A stretch of 38,133 bases of DNA from Candidatus Izemoplasma sp. (GTDB taxonomy: Bacteria; Bacillota_I; Bacilli_A; Izemoplasmatales; Izemoplasmataceae), in contig SKFS01000146.1 in assembly GCA_007117885.1 (NCBI GenBank), positions 1 to 38,133 on the forward strand. Direction: 5' to 3'. The position numbers and the translations under genes were made by a program. Shown piece by piece: positions 1-26,091 of this stretch (positions are counted from its first letter, which is position 1; each line of letters starts with the position of its first letter). The notes under the pieces were generated by a model. The model did not search any database and was not told where the DNA came from. It worked only from the letters and a program-made list of their open reading frames with translations.

Positions 1-194
1 GCTGCTTTAAGCGCCATCTCTTGTGTGCCATCGCCTTCACTCGGCACATAAATTTGCCGAATACCAAGTTTCTCAATGACCGCCGCTTCTGTCCAAACGC
101 CCTTTGTTTTTGCGGCAATTTCTTTGGCTGTAAGTACTGTTTTAGGTAAATAAATGCCTGTACCTACAATCCCAACATGGTTATTGTGGCTCAT
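1..194 (-). CDS. 3-oxoacyl-ACP synthase III (FabH)-like / KASIII family, N-terminal part, truncated by window edge
   Basis: Manual reverse-strand translation from ATG at 194: MSHNNHVGIVGTGIYLPKTVLTAKEIAAKTKGVWTEAAVIEKLGIRQIYVPSEGDGTQEMALKAA, typical KASIII N-terminus; not in the ORF track because truncated. Confidence 0.82.
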   Translation of the reverse strand, partial: MSHNNHVGIVGTGIYLPKTVLTAKEIAAKTKGVWTEAAVIEKLGIRQIYVPSEGDGTQEMALKA

Positions 195-209
195 TATACC
201 ACTCCTCGA

Positions 210-929
210 TTATAATCTCATTCCACCGTTTACACTAAGCACATGCCCGGTAATATAAGTTGACTCATTGCTTGCTAAAAAGAGCGCTGCATCGGCGATT
301 TCTTTTGGTTCGCCAATGCGTTTTAACATCGTTAAGTTGGCAAACTGCTTAAGTAAATCTTCCGGCACAGTCTTTAAAATATCCGTCATAATATAACCCG
401 GAGCAATTGCGTTAACACGAACTGGAACGCCTTTACGAGCAAACTCTTTCGCCCATGTTTTAGCCAAACCAATCACACCGGCTTTTGTCGCAGCGTAATT
501 CGCTTGACCAATATTGCCATACTCACCCACAACACTCGATATGTTTATAATCGAACCGCCACCTTGCGTTTCCATATGAGGACCGATATGACGGGTTAAA
601 TTGAACACACCTTTTAAGTTAACATCCATAACAATATCCCATTGTTCATCGGTCATTTTACGCGTCATCGCATCTCTTGTAATCCCCGCATTGTTGACCA
701 ATATATCAATGCTTCCATAGTGATTAACAATTTCTTCAAAGAAGTCTTTACATGCCGCACTGTCGGTAACATTTAATATCTTACCGACGACATTTTCTTG
801 TTCGTACTTCAAAGGTTGCATGTCTACCGCAATAACTTTTGCGCCTTCTTGCGCATAGCGAACAGCGATAGCTTGCCCTAATCCTTGTGCGCCCCCTGTT
901 ACAATAGCAACTTTATCTTTTAAACGCAT
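210..929 (-). CDS. fabG: SDR-family 3-oxoacyl-ACP / acetoacetyl-CoA reductase (FabG/PhaB-like)
   Basis: TGGAQGLGQAIA cofactor motif, NNAGITRD, YAATKAG catalytic YxxxK, C-terminal ITGHVLSVNGGM. Confidence 0.92.
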   Translation of the reverse strand: MRLKDKVAIVTGGAQGLGQAIAVRYAQEGAKVIAVDMQPLKYEQENVVGKILNVTDSAACKDFFEEIVNHYGSIDILVNNAGITRDAMTRKMTDEQWDIVMDVNLKGVFNLTRHIGPHMETQGGGSIINISSVVGEYGNIGQANYAATKAGVIGLAKTWAKEFARKGVPVRVNAIAPGYIMTDILKTVPEDLLKQFANLTMLKRIGEPKEIADAALFLASNESTYITGHVLSVNGGMRL

Positions 930-931
930 TT

Positions 932-2140
932 CTACACTCTCCTTAATATCATTGCAGTACCCATGCCGCCACCAATACAGAGTGACGCTAAACCATACGT
1001 ACTATCACGTTTTATCATTTCATGCACTAAAGTGACGATAATCCGGTTGCCGCTAGCACCCACAGGATGACCTAAAGCAATCGCGCCACCATTGACATTC
1101 GTTTTTTCTTGTAATTGTTCTTTGGCGATTTGATACTTCTCTTCAAGTTCGTGTAAAACACCTAAGCTTTGTGCTGCAAATGCTTCATTTAACTCTAGCA
1201 AATCGATATCTTTTAACTGCACACCAGCATGGTTCAAAGCGTTATCGATCGCTGGTGTAGGTCCTAAGCCCATATAGTTTGGATCAACGCCACCCTGACC
1301 AATACCCACGACTTCCGCAAGCGGTGTTAAGTTGTATTTTTCAATGGCCTCTTCACTCGCAATAAGCATAAAACTCGCACCATCATTAATTCCTGAGGCA
1401 TTTCCAGCTGTCACAGAGCCATCTTTTTTAAACGCTGGACGTAAACTGTTTAACTTCTCAAAACTCGTCGTACGATTCGGGTACTCATCGGTATCGAAAA
1501 CAACACTACTCTTCCGTTCTTTAACCTCAATTGGCACAATCTCATCGACAAAACGCTTACGATCAAGCGCTGCAATTGCACGCGCTTGGCTTTCGATCGC
1601 AAAACGATCTTGTGCTTCACGGGTAATCCCGTACTTTTCAACGATGTTTTCAGCCGTAATTCCCATATGAATTGGATTGAAAGCATCCATCAAAGCATCA
1701 TCAATCATATGATCTTTCACAGCAAAGCCACCCATTTTTATCCCTGGACGGATTTTATCCGGTAAAATATAAGGTGCTTTCGACATCGATTCAGTTCCCC
1801 CAGCAATAATAAGATGATGCAATCCAGCTTGAATGCTTGTAAAGGCATTCATGACACTTTTCATCCCAGAACCACATACCATGTTCACTGCATACGCGGG
1901 AACATGATGGGGAATCCCCGCATGAATCGCAACTTGTCTTGCCACCCCTTGGCCTAATCCTGCAGGCAAGATGTTTCCCACAATTACCTCATCAATTTCG
2001 CCGCCATCAAGCGCCGTTTCAGCAAGAATATTCTTCACCACTTCAGCGCCAAACAAAGCTGGATGGACATTTTTTAGTGTCCCCATAAAAGAGCCGATTG
2101 CTGTCCGCTTTGCGGCCACTACATAAACTTTCTTCGTCAT
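932..2140 (-). CDS. Acetyl-CoA acetyltransferase (thiolase)
   Basis: VCGSGMKSV active-site Cys, NVNGGAIALGHPVGASGNRI, CIGGGMGTAMI thiolase signatures. Confidence 0.94.
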   Translation of the reverse strand: MTKKVYVVAAKRTAIGSFMGTLKNVHPALFGAEVVKNILAETALDGGEIDEVIVGNILPAGLGQGVARQVAIHAGIPHHVPAYAVNMVCGSGMKSVMNAFTSIQAGLHHLIIAGGTESMSKAPYILPDKIRPGIKMGGFAVKDHMIDDALMDAFNPIHMGITAENIVEKYGITREAQDRFAIESQARAIAALDRKRFVDEIVPIEVKERKSSVVFDTDEYPNRTTSFEKLNSLRPAFKKDGSVTAGNASGINDGASFMLIASEEAIEKYNLTPLAEVVGIGQGGVDPNYMGLGPTPAIDNALNHAGVQLKDIDLLELNEAFAAQSLGVLHELEEKYQIAKEQLQEKTNVNGGAIALGHPVGASGNRIIVTLVHEMIKRDSTYGLASLCIGGGMGTAMILRRV

Positions 2141-2190
2141 AGTTCCTCCTCTATTTAATTACAACTCAAGGTTGCATTATTAAGTCTGTC

Positions 2191-2219
2191 ATTATATACT
2201 AGATTTATGAACATGCTTT
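2191..2219 (-). promoter_or_regulatory. Candidate promoter of the thiolase operon
   Basis: Reverse strand TATAAT (2191-2196), 17-bp spacer, -35 position at 2214-2219 with weak consensus lying inside palindrome 1. Confidence 0.5.
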
Positions 2220-2259
2220 CATTTACTGAATATACGTTCATAAACTGAATACCTATTCA
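2208..2259. promoter_or_regulatory. Array of three TetR-type operator palindromes, TGAA-N6-TTCA (first copy TGAA-N6-TTCA with CATGCT centre)
   Basis: TGAACATGCTTTCA 2208-2221, TGAATATACGTTCA 2227-2240, TGAATACCTATTCA 2246-2259; start-to-start spacing 19 and 19 bp. Confidence 0.8.
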
Positions 2260-2268
2260 CCTTATAAT
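2240..2268 (+). promoter_or_regulatory. Candidate tetR promoter
   Basis: TATAAT 2263-2268, 17-bp spacer that contains palindrome 3; weak -35 ATAAAC 2240-2245. Confidence 0.45.
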
Positions 2269-2278
2269 TTATTTTAAC

Positions 2279-2292
2279 ATAAAACGCTTACA
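2279..2292 (-). promoter_or_regulatory. cre-like site (TGTAAGCGTTTTAT on minus strand)
   Basis: 12/14 match to the cre consensus TGWAANCGNTNWCA, between the tetR -10 and its start codon. Confidence 0.45.
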
Positions 2293-2320
2293 CTGTCAAT
2301 TACAATCAATGGAGGTTTTT

Positions 2321-2920
2321 ATGCATACACCGATTAGTGAACCGACAACGCGCAATGCTAAGGCAACATTTAACCATATTTTAGATGCTGCGATTGAGCT
2401 GTTTTATAAGGATGGCTACCATCGCACTACCGTAAACAACATCACGAAGCACGCAGGGGTCGCTGCCGGCACATTTTACCTCTACTTTCCGAGTAAACTC
2501 GCCCTTTACAAACACGTACTCATTACTTTTTCTCATAATATTCGTCGGGAAATTGCTGCAAAAGTCGCCGTAAAAGAAACTCGATATGAAAAAGAACGTG
2601 AGGGAATTAAAGCGTTTATCCTTCTAGCGAAAAAGCACCCACAAATGTACAATATCATTTATGAATCGTTATATATTGATCGCGCGTTATTCAAAGATTA
2701 TTATGAATCCTTTGCCTTACGCTATATCCGCGGCTTAAACGAATCGGTAAAAAACAAAGAAATCCGTGACATCGATACAGAAATAGTCAGCTATGTATTA
2801 ATGGGAATATCGAATTTCATCGGTTTAAAAGTCGTCTTAGATTTAGGCAACAATAATGATGATATCGACTATATTGTCGACCAAGTGATGGAACTGATTA
2901 AAGCCGGCCTTTTTAGATAA
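2321..2920 (+). CDS. TetR/AcrR-family transcriptional regulator
   Basis: N-terminal HTH: ILDAAIELFYKDGYHRTTVNNITKHAGVAAGTFYLYFPSK. Start moved from 2309 to 2321 because the ORF-track start overlaps the GGAGG RBS. Confidence 0.93.
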   Translation: MHTPISEPTTRNAKATFNHILDAAIELFYKDGYHRTTVNNITKHAGVAAGTFYLYFPSKLALYKHVLITFSHNIRREIAAKVAVKETRYEKEREGIKAFILLAKKHPQMYNIIYESLYIDRALFKDYYESFALRYIRGLNESVKNKEIRDIDTEIVSYVLMGISNFIGLKVVLDLGNNNDDIDYIVDQVMELIKAGLFR

Positions 2921-2952: not shown

Positions 2953-3072
2953 ATGGTCGTCCTTAACACACATTATTTGCCTAAATATGGTTGTTTACTT
3001 CTTTTCTTTTTGATATTATATAATCAAGCTAAAACTTATTTTTGCATTGCCTTTTACTTAAGGTGGGGTACG

Positions 3073-5547
3073 ATGAATCGACTTAGAAAACAGTTTCTTG
3101 TCGTTTTGCTTGGTGTTGCTTTTACCGTAATCGCTTTTTCAGGGATTTACCTTTTCTCAACAAATTTACTTGAATCCCGACAAGAAGCGATTCTTTTGCT
3201 TGAAAGTGAAAAAGCAACCGAAGAGTTTAATCAATACTTCTATGCCGTTGAAACGATTCTTGATAACTTAACACTATACATCCATCATAATGCCGATGAG
3301 AGCGCTCTTTTAGATTATATGGTACGGATTGATAGTGACCATCCGATGATTGCTTCCTTATATCTAGGTAAACCCGATTTAACGATGGTGAATTCGACCG
3401 GATTTATCCCGCCACCCGGGTTTGATTTAACAACACGGTTATGGTATCAGGATGCTTTGAACAGTGACACTATTATTTACACGAATGCTTTTCTTAATGC
3501 CACAGAAGATCGCATGATTGTCACCGTGGCTAAAGCGGTATACAGGGATAACAACTTTATTGGCGTCATCGCAGCGGATATTGATATTCTTACACTCAAT
3601 GAACTCATCTCAACGAAAACCATCGGTGAGAGTGGCTTCGCCTTTCTGATTGACAGCAATCATCATTTGCTTGCAGCCCCGTCTTTTGAGACTTCACCGC
3701 TTGCTTTAATTAACGCTGAAACGATGGGATACCCGATTATTAATCATAACGGTGAATCCTTTCACTACCGTATCTCTGTTCGTGAGCAAACCGGTGTTTT
3801 AGTCAGTAGTCCAATAAAAGATGGAACGTATACGTTAAATGTTTTTATGGATAATAACGAGTATTACCAACAAACTCAAGTCTTCCTATGGGTCTTAATC
3901 ACCGTTGGATTCTTCTTTGTTTTATCAGGAAGCGGTTTATATGCGTACTACTTACGTTTTGTTAGGCGGCCCATCGATGCCTTGCTTGAGGATATCGACA
4001 CAATAGACATTGGTGAGAACACCGATTATCGTCTCTCACTCAATCCTAATAAAGGGTTTGTTGGCATTCGTAGAACGTTAAACAATGTCCTTTCGGCTTT
4101 AGCACTATTCCAGTCTAAAGTGCAAGAGACCAATCGCAAACTTCTCATTGAAAACCAGCGAGTGATTCGTTTAATGGAGTCAAATGCGGACATTGTGTTT
4201 GAAATTGATCGTAATCGTCGCTTTGTATCGGTCTTCGGCAAAGGCTTAAAGACGATTAACCATAATCCTGAAGATTTTATGGATAAGACTGTTTTAGACG
4301 TCTTTGGGGACGATGGGATCGAACGGGACAACCATTATCAAGAAGCCTTAAAAGGAAAGACAGTTCGCTATGAATGGCAATACCTTCTGGAAGATAACCG
4401 CGTCATTTATTTCTCAACGATTATTTCAGCAATCCGTGACCAACAAAAAGAGATTATCGGTGCCGTTGGCATCACCCGAGATATTACCGAGGAGAAGCAA
4501 AAACAGCAAGAAATCGAGCACTTAAGCTTTCATGATTATTTAACCGGCCTTCACAACCGACGCTATTTTTCCGAAGTGTTGTTAAGGTATGACACATCTC
4601 AATACTACCCTCTAGCCCTAATTAATATTGATGTTAATGGGCTAAAACTACTCAATGATGCCTTTGGTCACCAAACGGGTGATTTAGCACTGAAGAAGCT
4701 CGCCCAAACATTTAGTGATGTTTTTTCGCCGCATGGGGCAGTCTGCCGCATCGGTGGCGATGAGTTTGCCGTACTCATTCCAAACACCGATGAAGGCTTC
4801 ATCGAAACACTTAAGAAAAACATCCTAGACAAAGTTGCCAGCTTAAACATTCATAGTATTCAGTTATCGATTGCTTTAGGCTATGCCATCAAAGAATCTA
4901 GCCATACCTCGATTCAAGAAATGATGAACGAAGCTGAAAACAAAATGTATAAACAAAAGATTCTTGAAGGAAAAAGTGCTCGCAGCAATGCCATCCAAGC
5001 AATTCTTAACACCTTAACCCATAAATATGCCCTTGAAGAACGGCATTCAAAGCGTGTCGCAAACATATCCAAAGCGATTGGAAAAGCGCTGATGCTTAAA
5101 CACGATGAAATCAATGAACTCGTTCTTGCGGCGTCCGTCCACGACATCGGGAAAATTGCGATACCCGATGAGATACTCAATAAACCGAGTTTGTTAGATA
5201 AGGAAGAGTATGAAGTCATTAAAGCCCACACGGAAGCCGGCTATCAGATTTTACGTGCCGCTGATGAATATTCTAGTTTAGCTGAGGATGCGCTTTGTCA
5301 CCATGAGCACTATGATGGCAATGGGTATCCAAACCAACTCAAAGGCGAAGAAATTCCTTTGTTTTCAAGAATCATTGGTGTTGCCGATGCCTATGAAGCA
5401 ATGACTTCAGATCGGCCTTACCGTAAAGCACTATCAAAAGACAAAGCCATACAAGAATTGATTAAACATCGTGGTACACAATTCGATCCAAAAATCGTTG
5501 ATGTCTTTATCCACACTGTTTTGAAACAAGCCGACGAAGAACTATAA
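3073..5547 (+). CDS. Membrane dCache-PAS-GGDEF-HD-GYP protein (c-di-GMP synthesis/hydrolysis)
   Basis: N-terminal TM + extracytoplasmic sensor, second TM, PAS (ITRDITEEKQKQQEIE), RIGGDEFAVLIPN, HDIGK and HHEHYDGNGYP. Start 3073 preferred: RBS AGGTGGGG; the 2953 start lies in the preceding terminator. Confidence 0.93.
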   Translation: MNRLRKQFLVVLLGVAFTVIAFSGIYLFSTNLLESRQEAILLLESEKATEEFNQYFYAVETILDNLTLYIHHNADESALLDYMVRIDSDHPMIASLYLGKPDLTMVNSTGFIPPPGFDLTTRLWYQDALNSDTIIYTNAFLNATEDRMIVTVAKAVYRDNNFIGVIAADIDILTLNELISTKTIGESGFAFLIDSNHHLLAAPSFETSPLALINAETMGYPIINHNGESFHYRISVREQTGVLVSSPIKDGTYTLNVFMDNNEYYQQTQVFLWVLITVGFFFVLSGSGLYAYYLRFVRRPIDALLEDIDTIDIGENTDYRLSLNPNKGFVGIRRTLNNVLSALALFQSKVQETNRKLLIENQRVIRLMESNADIVFEIDRNRRFVSVFGKGLKTINHNPEDFMDKTVLDVFGDDGIERDNHYQEALKGKTVRYEWQYLLEDNRVIYFSTIISAIRDQQKEIIGAVGITRDITEEKQKQQEIEHLSFHDYLTGLHNRRYFSEVLLRYDTSQYYPLALINIDVNGLKLLNDAFGHQTGDLALKKLAQTFSDVFSPHGAVCRIGGDEFAVLIPNTDEGFIETLKKNILDKVASLNIHSIQLSIALGYAIKESSHTSIQEMMNEAENKMYKQKILEGKSARSNAIQAILNTLTHKYALEERHSKRVANISKAIGKALMLKHDEINELVLAASVHDIGKIAIPDEILNKPSLLDKEEYEVIKAHTEAGYQILRAADEYSSLAEDALCHHEHYDGNGYPNQLKGEEIPLFSRIIGVADAYEAMTSDRPYRKALSKDKAIQELIKHRGTQFDPKIVDVFIHTVLKQADEEL

Positions 5548-13936: not shown

Positions 13937-15443
13937 TTTCGATAAGGTCGAGTATTTTTTGCCGATACATAGGTGAACGATTCGACTTCATTTTGTAGAG
14001 CTCTTTGTCTGCTCTAGACAAAATTTTATCCATAGACTCTCTATCTTTTCGATAGGCGACACCGTAGGATATGCTCACATGATTCTCAATACTCTGATCA
14101 TAAACATTTTCATCGATCGTGTTGGCAACTTTGTGTAAATCAATGGACTCTGTTGACTTAAACATCAGCAGAAACTCATCGCCACCTAAACGAATTGCTA
14201 AACCGTCTTCTTGATGACTAAACTCCTTTAAAACTTTAGCTAAACGAATAATCCAAGCATCGCCTTTCTCATGGCCATAGTAATCATTGAGTAGTTTCAA
14301 GCCATTTAAGTCAAGCATAATGACCCCTAAATATGGGTAATTCTTTTCATATTCATCGCGTCTTTCTTCAAAATAATTGCGGTTGTATAGCTCAGTCATT
14401 TGATCGTAGCTTCGTAAATAATTAAGATTGTGTACAAGTTCAACCAACTGAGTTTCATCATACATGAGGATTAGTTGGCCTTTTTTCTTAAACAACGAGA
14501 GCTCTAAAACTTGTTTTCGTGTATAAAGATAAGGTTTATTCTCAATATAGACGCCATCTTTAACTTCATCAAAGTGTTCATATACAATGGCTTGCGCTTG
14601 AATAACTCTAAGAAATTCATCGACGGTGGTTGGGGTTTCATCGTTTTTGAAGAAGCGCTGAACATTGACAGAATACTCTAAAATCATCCCATTGTGATCG
14701 GCAATAATCATCATTTCACGCATTGAGTCAATCACTTCCTTACGACCACGGTTAAGAAGATTTAAATGAAAATCCCGTTTATACACAGCAAAATATAATG
14801 CAAAACCAAATAAGACAAGGGCTAAATAGGTTGGATCTATGTAGAAATTGTAAATAAAAAGATGTGTAAAGTTAAGCGTTAATCCTACCGTAACAGTGAT
14901 AATGATAAGGTAAAAAGAAACTTCATCAACTTCTTTTTGTGCAGGTTGGCGCAAATATTTAAGCAATCGCACTAAAAAGGTAATGATAATACTATAACAA
15001 AACGCGGTGTGGACAAAAAAGAACCAACCCAGTTCAGAATAGATTAAATCATCAATGCTGGAGATTGCCGAGATTTCGATATTGATTAATGCTTGATGCA
15101 ATGGATTAGTTAAAGAAACGAGTGCAATCACAACAAAATAGGTTACAAACACACCATTAAGCCACATGGGAGTTTTATTTTGAGTGAACGTTTGAACGGT
15201 TTCAAAAGCATAATATACAATTAAGAAAACTGTTGGATAAATCAGCAACAGAAGATAATAGTTTAAAATGATACCATCAATCACATAAAACGCGAAAATT
15301 AAGAGCGTCCAAATAAAAATGACTTGCATTAAATGTCTTAGTGCACGGTATTTCAAAACTTGTTTATACTGATTGAGTATAATAACAGGAATAAACGATA
15401 AAAATCCAAATGCAATGAGGACACTGCCGGCAATAATATCCAT
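13923..15443 (-). CDS. Multi-TM (7TM-type sensor) diguanylate cyclase
   Basis: About 7 hydrophobic helices, PAS-like linker, IRLGGDEFLLMFKS, GVIMLDLNGLKLLND. Confidence 0.92.
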   Translation of the reverse strand: MDIIAGSVLIAFGFLSFIPVIILNQYKQVLKYRALRHLMQVIFIWTLLIFAFYVIDGIILNYYLLLLIYPTVFLIVYYAFETVQTFTQNKTPMWLNGVFVTYFVVIALVSLTNPLHQALINIEISAISSIDDLIYSELGWFFFVHTAFCYSIIITFLVRLLKYLRQPAQKEVDEVSFYLIIITVTVGLTLNFTHLFIYNFYIDPTYLALVLFGFALYFAVYKRDFHLNLLNRGRKEVIDSMREMMIIADHNGMILEYSVNVQRFFKNDETPTTVDEFLRVIQAQAIVYEHFDEVKDGVYIENKPYLYTRKQVLELSLFKKKGQLILMYDETQLVELVHNLNYLRSYDQMTELYNRNYFEERRDEYEKNYPYLGVIMLDLNGLKLLNDYYGHEKGDAWIIRLAKVLKEFSHQEDGLAIRLGGDEFLLMFKSTESIDLHKVANTIDENVYDQSIENHVSISYGVAYRKDRESMDKILSRADKELYKMKSNRSPMYRQKILDLIEKKKA

Positions 15444-26077: not shown

Positions 26078-26091
26078 TGTAAGCGTTTTGT
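26078..26091 (+). promoter_or_regulatory. cre/LacI-type site downstream of malE promoter
   Basis: TGTAAGCGTTTTGT, 12/14 to the cre consensus. Confidence 0.55.

Follow-up and report, generated by a model that had tools for sequence, protein, structure and literature searches.

A 19-bp-pitch array of predicted TetR operators between predicted head-on promoters at the tetR/thiolase locus of an Izemoplasmatales family

Background

In a Candidatus Izemoplasma genome, a gene for a TetR-type regulator and a gene for a thiolase are divergently oriented, and the region between them carries three short palindromes at regular intervals. This arrangement raises the question of what binds the palindromes, which promoters they control, and whether their spacing matters. 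We analyzed the 38,133-nucleotide stretch that contains the locus (hereafter, the window) together with the remainder of its genome (G000; 1.75 Mb in 167 contigs), which falls among MAGs that carry the names Candidatus Izimaplasma and Mollicutes bacterium. The tetR/thiolase arrangement is present throughout two families of the order Izemoplasmatales, namely the family of the window (f1; 36 tetR/thiolase loci) and a sister family (f2; 29 loci). Members of the order have been reported as sugar fermenters (PMC6256511).

Results and discussion

Operator array and promoters

The three palindromes have the form TGAA-N6-TTCA and start at positions 2208, 2227 and 2246, an exact 19-bp pitch (Table 1). 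Their sequences, coordinates and spacing are all as originally predicted. With 10.5 bp to a helical turn, the pitch spans 1.81 turns, which leaves neighboring sites ~69 degrees off alignment. The window contains five TGAA-N6-TTCA sites compared with 1.66 expected from shuffled sequences. Two sites no more than 40 bp apart occurred in one of 300 Markov simulations of the window, and 19-bp palindrome pairs occurred in none. When the whole genome was scanned, the exact two-site 19-bp pattern proved to be unique to the tetR/thiolase locus.

Table 1. Features of the tetR/thiolase locus, in window coordinates
Feature	Positions	Strand	Details
Operator O1	2208..2221	.	TGAACATGCTTTCA; adjoins tetR promoter start region; slot kept in three-operator relatives
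Operator O2	2227..2240	.	TGAATATACGTTCA; sequence, family conservation
Operator O3	2246..2259	.	TGAATACCTATTCA; adjoins thiolase promoter start region
Predicted tetR promoter	2172..2200 (2172-2177/2195-2200)	+	TTGCAT-17-TATACT; recognizable in 36/36 f1 loci
Predicted thiolase promoter	2271..2299 (2299-2294/2276-2271)	-	TTGACA-17-TAAAAT, extended TGn; TTGACA/TTGACT-17 in 36/36 f1 loci
cre-like (CcpA) box	2279..2292	-	TGTAAGCGTTTTAT; inside -35/-10 spacer of thiolase promoter
tetR gene	2321..2920	+	199 aa, FadRSa-type TetR regulator; ATG 2321, RBS GGAGG 2311-2315
Acetyl-CoA C-acyltransferase (thiolase)	932..2140	-	First gene of operon
SDR reductase	210..929	-	FabG/acetoacetyl-CoA reductase type
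KASIII-like gene start	3..194	-	PRK06840-type; cut by contig end

The predicted tetR promoter lies to the left of the array and the predicted thiolase promoter to the right, each on the far side from its own gene. Transcription is predicted to start at ~2207 (+) and ~2264 (-), just outside the array at 2208-2259. This geometry, in which divergent genes have convergent promoters whose predicted start sites flank the array, is found in all 36 loci of the family. The thiolase promoter of the window matches 11 of 12 consensus bases, and its counterparts mostly have an extended TGn and a -10 element of the form TAnnnT, with one poor -10 (TAGCAC in L014). The tetR promoter takes the form TTGnnn-17-TATACT or TATAAT, with a spacing of 16 or 18 in two of the 36 loci. 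The tetR boxes were located by a search for a shared TTGCnn-17-TATAMT, adopted after automatic choice of the best promoter had picked wrong boxes in many genomes. This consensus was chosen by eye, which makes the hexamer match partly a product of that choice; position and spacing are less affected.

In the original prediction the two promoters had the reverse assignment, with TATAAT at 2191-2196 (-) serving as the thiolase -10 and TATAAT at 2263-2268 (+) as the tetR -10. Neither box is conserved, and the corresponding -35 positions read AAAGCA and ATAAAC. Palindrome 1 does not cover a -35 element, nor does palindrome 3 fill the spacer of the tetR promoter; the conserved promoters run the opposite way, and the array spans the predicted start regions of both.

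The thiolase promoter also carries a cre-like box that matches 12 of 14 consensus bases in the window. Its core, TGWAARCGYTT, is found at the thiolase promoter in 35 of 36 f1 and 28 of 29 f2 intergenic regions, and in f1 it sits inside the -35/-10 spacer. HPr kinase (HPrK) scores over its curated cut-off in the window's genome. The best CcpA-like protein among several of the LacI family scores 291.8 bits, below the NCBIfam cut-off of 442. Further cre-like sequences, with 12-13 of 14 consensus bases, are located in the window at 15204, 20702 and 26253 (-) and at 26078 (+).

The regulator

The product of tetR has a TetR_N helix-turn-helix domain (PF00440; 63.8 bits compared with a cut-off of 24), and its AF2 model is helical with a pLDDT of 93.6. 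Its best match in the PDB is FadRSa of the archaeon Sulfolobus acidocaldarius (phmmer 2.8e-28, ungapped over 169 residues). A profile built from 30 sequences matches FadRSa at 4e-42, the sole protein in the PDB below 1e-20, and in a Foldseek search with the AF2 model FadRSa chains take ranks 1-7, with Bacillus FadR behind. In FadRSa, the response to ligand depends on R73 and R86, both of which contact CoA; DNA binding requires G48 and is weakened by the substitutions Y47A, Y51A and Y53A (PMC6449355). The equivalents of both arginines are present (R75 in 29 of 30 aligned proteins and R88 in all 30), and G50, Y53 and Y55, which correspond to the DNA-contacting G48, Y51 and Y53, are conserved.

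The equivalents of FadRSa Y47, M101 and N37 are not conserved; A103 replaces M101, and position 39 (N39, the Asn37 equivalent) is variable in the array-bearing clade. Because the equivalents of M101 and Asn37 are missing, we class the regulator as kin of FadRSa rather than as FadRSa itself. We infer that its ligand is an acyl-CoA. The original prediction of an acyl-CoA-type TetR is supported for the type of regulator. Its comparison with FadR of Bacillus does not hold as well, since the nearest kin is archaeal and the NCBIfam model for the Bacillus FadR equivalog (NF053878) scores 51.1 bits against a cut-off of 200.

Downstream of tetR, at 2953-5547 on the + strand, there is a large gene whose product, as judged by eye, resembles a membrane sensor that contains domains of the GGDEF and HD types.

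The thiolase operon and a second target

The window breaks off within the third gene of the thiolase operon, which in relatives with long contigs continues. The order there is thiolase, SDR, KASIII-like PRK06840, Liv-type permeases and ATPases, and a substrate-binding protein, followed by a CoA-transferase, an alpha/beta hydrolase and, contig permitting, an intracellular short-chain PHA depolymerase. In the PDB, the CoA-transferase comes closest to 4-hydroxybutyrate CoA-transferases. The depolymerase, CoA-transferase, SDR and thiolase genes, which share one operon in relatives, are divided between two contigs in the window's genome: contig C165 holds homologues of the later operon genes, the last of which is the depolymerase (NF050089; 336.5 bits compared with a cut-off of 300). 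The KASIII-like PRK06840-type gene is a constant third member of the operon (L084:8119-9150, L041:2775-3809 and window 3-194). The LivG gene on C165 (L177:141-917) is by eye mostly very unlike that of the nearest relative (L041:65-847) and nearly identical at its end, possibly as a result of a chimeric assembly join.

The earlier description of the operon as thiolase-fabG-fabH is too simple, since the Liv-type transporter, CoA-transferase and short-chain PHA depolymerase point to hydroxyalkanoate catabolism. From its gene content, the operon looks like one for the uptake and catabolism of hydroxybutyrate or PHB oligomers. PHA synthase is absent from the 49 genomes of the family, and this reading therefore depends on scavenging. 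The regulon would suggest that Izemoplasmatales scavenge hydroxybutyrate or PHB oligomers. A literature search on hydroxybutyrate metabolism in Izemoplasma, weak in that subscription papers were thinly covered, found nothing relevant.

A second operon carries the same operators in relatives. An exact 19-bp pair is present in 34 of the 49 family genomes (none with the reversed control), and five such pairs lie away from the tetR locus. All five are upstream of acyl-CoA dehydrogenase-EtfBA operons, three of which begin with a gene for a MaoC-type hydratase. These names were read from translations, and the dehydrogenase is of the short-chain acyl-CoA type. The operon is present in eight f1 genomes, of which six have a 19-bp pair (one mismatched) and two lack operators. 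The sister family has single operators at both the tetR/thiolase locus and the acyl-CoA dehydrogenase operon, the latter in four of four genomes. In the five arrays a plausible -10 immediately precedes the operators, which matches their placement at the thiolase promoter. The geometry is one-directional, with no head-on arrangement. The second operon is absent from the window's own genome, where a search for a wider regulon found none: the count of TGAAYRN4TTCA equals that of the reversed control, and the sites examined are intragenic. Judging by gene content, the two operons together could allow some relatives to make butyrate.

The same genes may be read differently, such that the switch serves fatty-acid synthesis or general beta-oxidation and senses long-chain acyl-CoA in the manner of Bacillus FadR. 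The thiolase, FabG-like and KASIII-like genes are compatible with such a role, as are the acyl-CoA dehydrogenase and EtfBA genes of the second target. Moreover, FadRSa does not respond to acetyl-CoA and responds more strongly to longer chains (PMC6449355), for which reason a short-chain effector is not favored. Against this reading, the operon also encodes a Liv-type transporter, a CoA-transferase of the butyryl/4-hydroxybutyrate type and a short-chain PHA depolymerase that scores above its curated cut-off, and the Bacillus FadR model is not matched. We regard the long-chain interpretation as unlikely, although it is the most credible of the alternatives considered here, and continue with hydroxybutyrate as the probable substrate.

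Conservation of the array and its pitch

The 36 loci of the window's family contain 89 operators when at most one mismatch is allowed, with two palindromes in 20 loci, three in 15 and four in one. TGAA and TTCA are almost invariant, position 5 is mainly T or C, and there is no constraint on the central bases. The operators are therefore conserved in orthologous intergenic regions, as the original prediction required, and this conservation supports control of both genes by an array of TetR operators. O2 and O3 occupy the best-conserved slots. In many two-operator genomes, among them L022-L025, L029-L031, L047, L049 and L050, the slot adjoining the tetR promoter has decayed, and the distance between the promoters is still near 60 bp.

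We counted the 57 pairwise distances among exact palindromes in these loci with no pitch assumed, and each was either 19 bp (44 pairs) or 38 bp (13 pairs). In the sister family the loci have a single palindrome or palindromes that are mostly 109-220 bp apart; among the 29 loci, two exact pairs are spaced by 16 bp, and there is no 19-bp pair. Pairs with a 16-bp pitch occur outside the array clade in L162 and L164 (f10) and in L057, L059 and L064 (f2), and possibly represent a second register. Across 395 genomes of the class, the 19-bp pattern is present in 26 of 31 f1 genomes and in five of 364 others (three matches with the control). In one of these five, a member of family f5, the match again lies at the tetR/thiolase locus.

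Does the protein impose this pitch? It could instead be a relic, whereby the sites are ordinary TetR operators that make no contact with their neighbors, an ancestral 19-bp unit was duplicated in tandem, and the spacing has been retained merely because insertions or deletions would upset the promoters. Tandem duplication alone could generate a uniform pitch. The TetRs that accompany 19-bp arrays form one clade and may have a single origin, some linkers resemble one another (TAAAC in 16 of 53), and the decay of slot 1 seen in many genomes has left the promoter distance unchanged. However, most linkers and the inner six bases have diverged between neighboring sites. In addition, the distance from array to -10 ranges between 1 and 35 bp at the tetR end and between -1 and 13 bp at the thiolase end, and the pitch never varies. 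The pitch also recurs at the separate, one-directional promoter of the second operon. Because flanking distances drift while the pitch is constant and reappears at a different promoter, we favor a pitch imposed by the protein, most simply through contacts of adjacent dimers, and consider independent sites improbable, though clearly less so than the explanations that follow. The importance that had been attributed to a fixed pitch thus gains indirect support.

The binder is probably the adjacent TetR. The 36 TetRs with 19-bp arrays form a clade with support of 100/94 (98% of bootstrap trees), and regulator and register were therefore inherited together. At L160:447-479 (G103, from another family of the class), tetR, a 19-bp pair, a cre-like box and the thiolase gene all occur together in what looks, from the sequence, like horizontal transfer of the entire control unit; the TetR of the transferred-looking locus nests inside the f1 clade. 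A different TetR-type regulator might use the array, or the array might work by activation, and a distant paralogue does exist in the genome (G000:C26, 29% identity). However, the array and the adjacent TetR co-occur and follow the same phylogeny, also where the locus seems to have moved into another family, and operators over start regions fit repression, all of which makes this alternative very improbable.

We rejected, as the least credible possibility of all, that the palindromes work at the RNA level, either by forming hairpins where the 5' leaders of tetR and thiolase mRNA overlap or as an antisense pairing device: they do fall within both predicted leaders, which would overlap by ~58 nt, but the stems are just 4 bp, complementarity beyond TGAA/TTCA shows no covariation within the dyads (44, 31 and 21 of 89 compared with column expectations of 43.1, 40.1 and 22.2), there is no Rfam match at the array, and both the second operon and the f2 loci carry the same motif without a head-on arrangement.

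A proposed switch

Taken together, these observations make it probable that the locus is an autoregulated repressor switch that acts on both promoters, is relieved by acyl-CoA, and is cooperative at the 19-bp pitch. TetR dimers would sit next to one another on the three palindromes, with a spacing dictated by the protein family, and might make cooperative contacts with their neighbors. Any such contact must differ from that of FadRSa, because the Asn37 equivalent is not conserved in the array clade. The bound array would cover the DNA between the facing start sites and block initiation or early elongation in both directions, such that tetR (by autorepression) and the thiolase operon would be repressed at once. 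The substrate, probably 3-hydroxybutyrate or short PHB oligomers, would yield a short-chain (hydroxy)acyl-CoA that enters the FadRSa-like pocket at R75 and R88, whereupon TetR would leave the DNA. The free promoters are probably mutually exclusive, because they collide and their transcripts would overlap by ~58 nt. Expression of the operon would then provide import, CoA transfer, ester hydrolysis, reduction or oxidation, and thiolysis, and the cre box in the thiolase promoter spacer may add a carbon-catabolite check of the CcpA type.

Because arrays of two, three and four copies are conserved across the family and single-site relatives can serve as a natural control, a rule for cooperative TetR binding becomes directly testable. 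Our search of the literature for tandem TetR operators at a 19-bp pitch, or for face-to-face TetR promoters, returned nothing relevant, although it too was weak, with thin coverage of subscription papers.

Comparison with known systems

The operators of Bacillus FadR (YsiA) carry TGAAT/ATTCA half-sites, as do those described here. The two regulators (PDB 3WHB/3WHC for the Bacillus protein) also share the TetR fold, a GT(F/I)YLYF recognition region and a setting of acyl-CoA metabolism. However, they are only 22% identical in the fold comparison, in which Bacillus FadR ranks after FadRSa. The cre-like element resembles known CcpA/cre control in its conserved core within a promoter and in the presence of HPrK, and departs from it in a CcpA-like protein below the curated cut-off and an imperfect cre match.

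FadRSa (Saci_1107; PDB 6EL2/6EN8; PMC6449355) is the nearest solved protein by both sequence and fold. Besides the retained CoA- and DNA-contacting residues, the systems have in common a divergent, autoregulated gene beside genes of acyl-CoA catabolism, with autoregulation predicted here. In contrast to FadRSa, the present regulator has alanine in place of M101 and belongs to a bacterial host, with bacterial promoters and a cre box. Binding of FadRSa is cooperative and involves two dimers (PMC6449355), which pair on overlapping repeats through an Asn37 contact, whereas the dyads described here are separate and set at a 19-bp pitch. QacR likewise places more than one dimer on a control region, as we predict from the operator sequences for this array; however, QacR sites overlap (PMC6449355), and here two to four separate full dyads stand in a row.

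A BLAST search found no bacterial functional homologues of FadRSa, and it was argued that FadRSa shares no ancestry with bacterial FadR (PMC6449355). The TetRs of Izemoplasmatales are, from their sequences, candidates for the missing bacterial kin, and a bacterial lineage with the CoA-binding arginines of FadRSa bears on that argument. Tentatively, and with a good deal less confidence than in the switch itself, we propose that the array represents an arrangement distinct from the overlapping sites of QacR and FadRSa: a row of contacting FadRSa-type dimers in a strict 19-bp register, which would form an all-or-none lock on head-on promoters for hydroxybutyrate catabolism.
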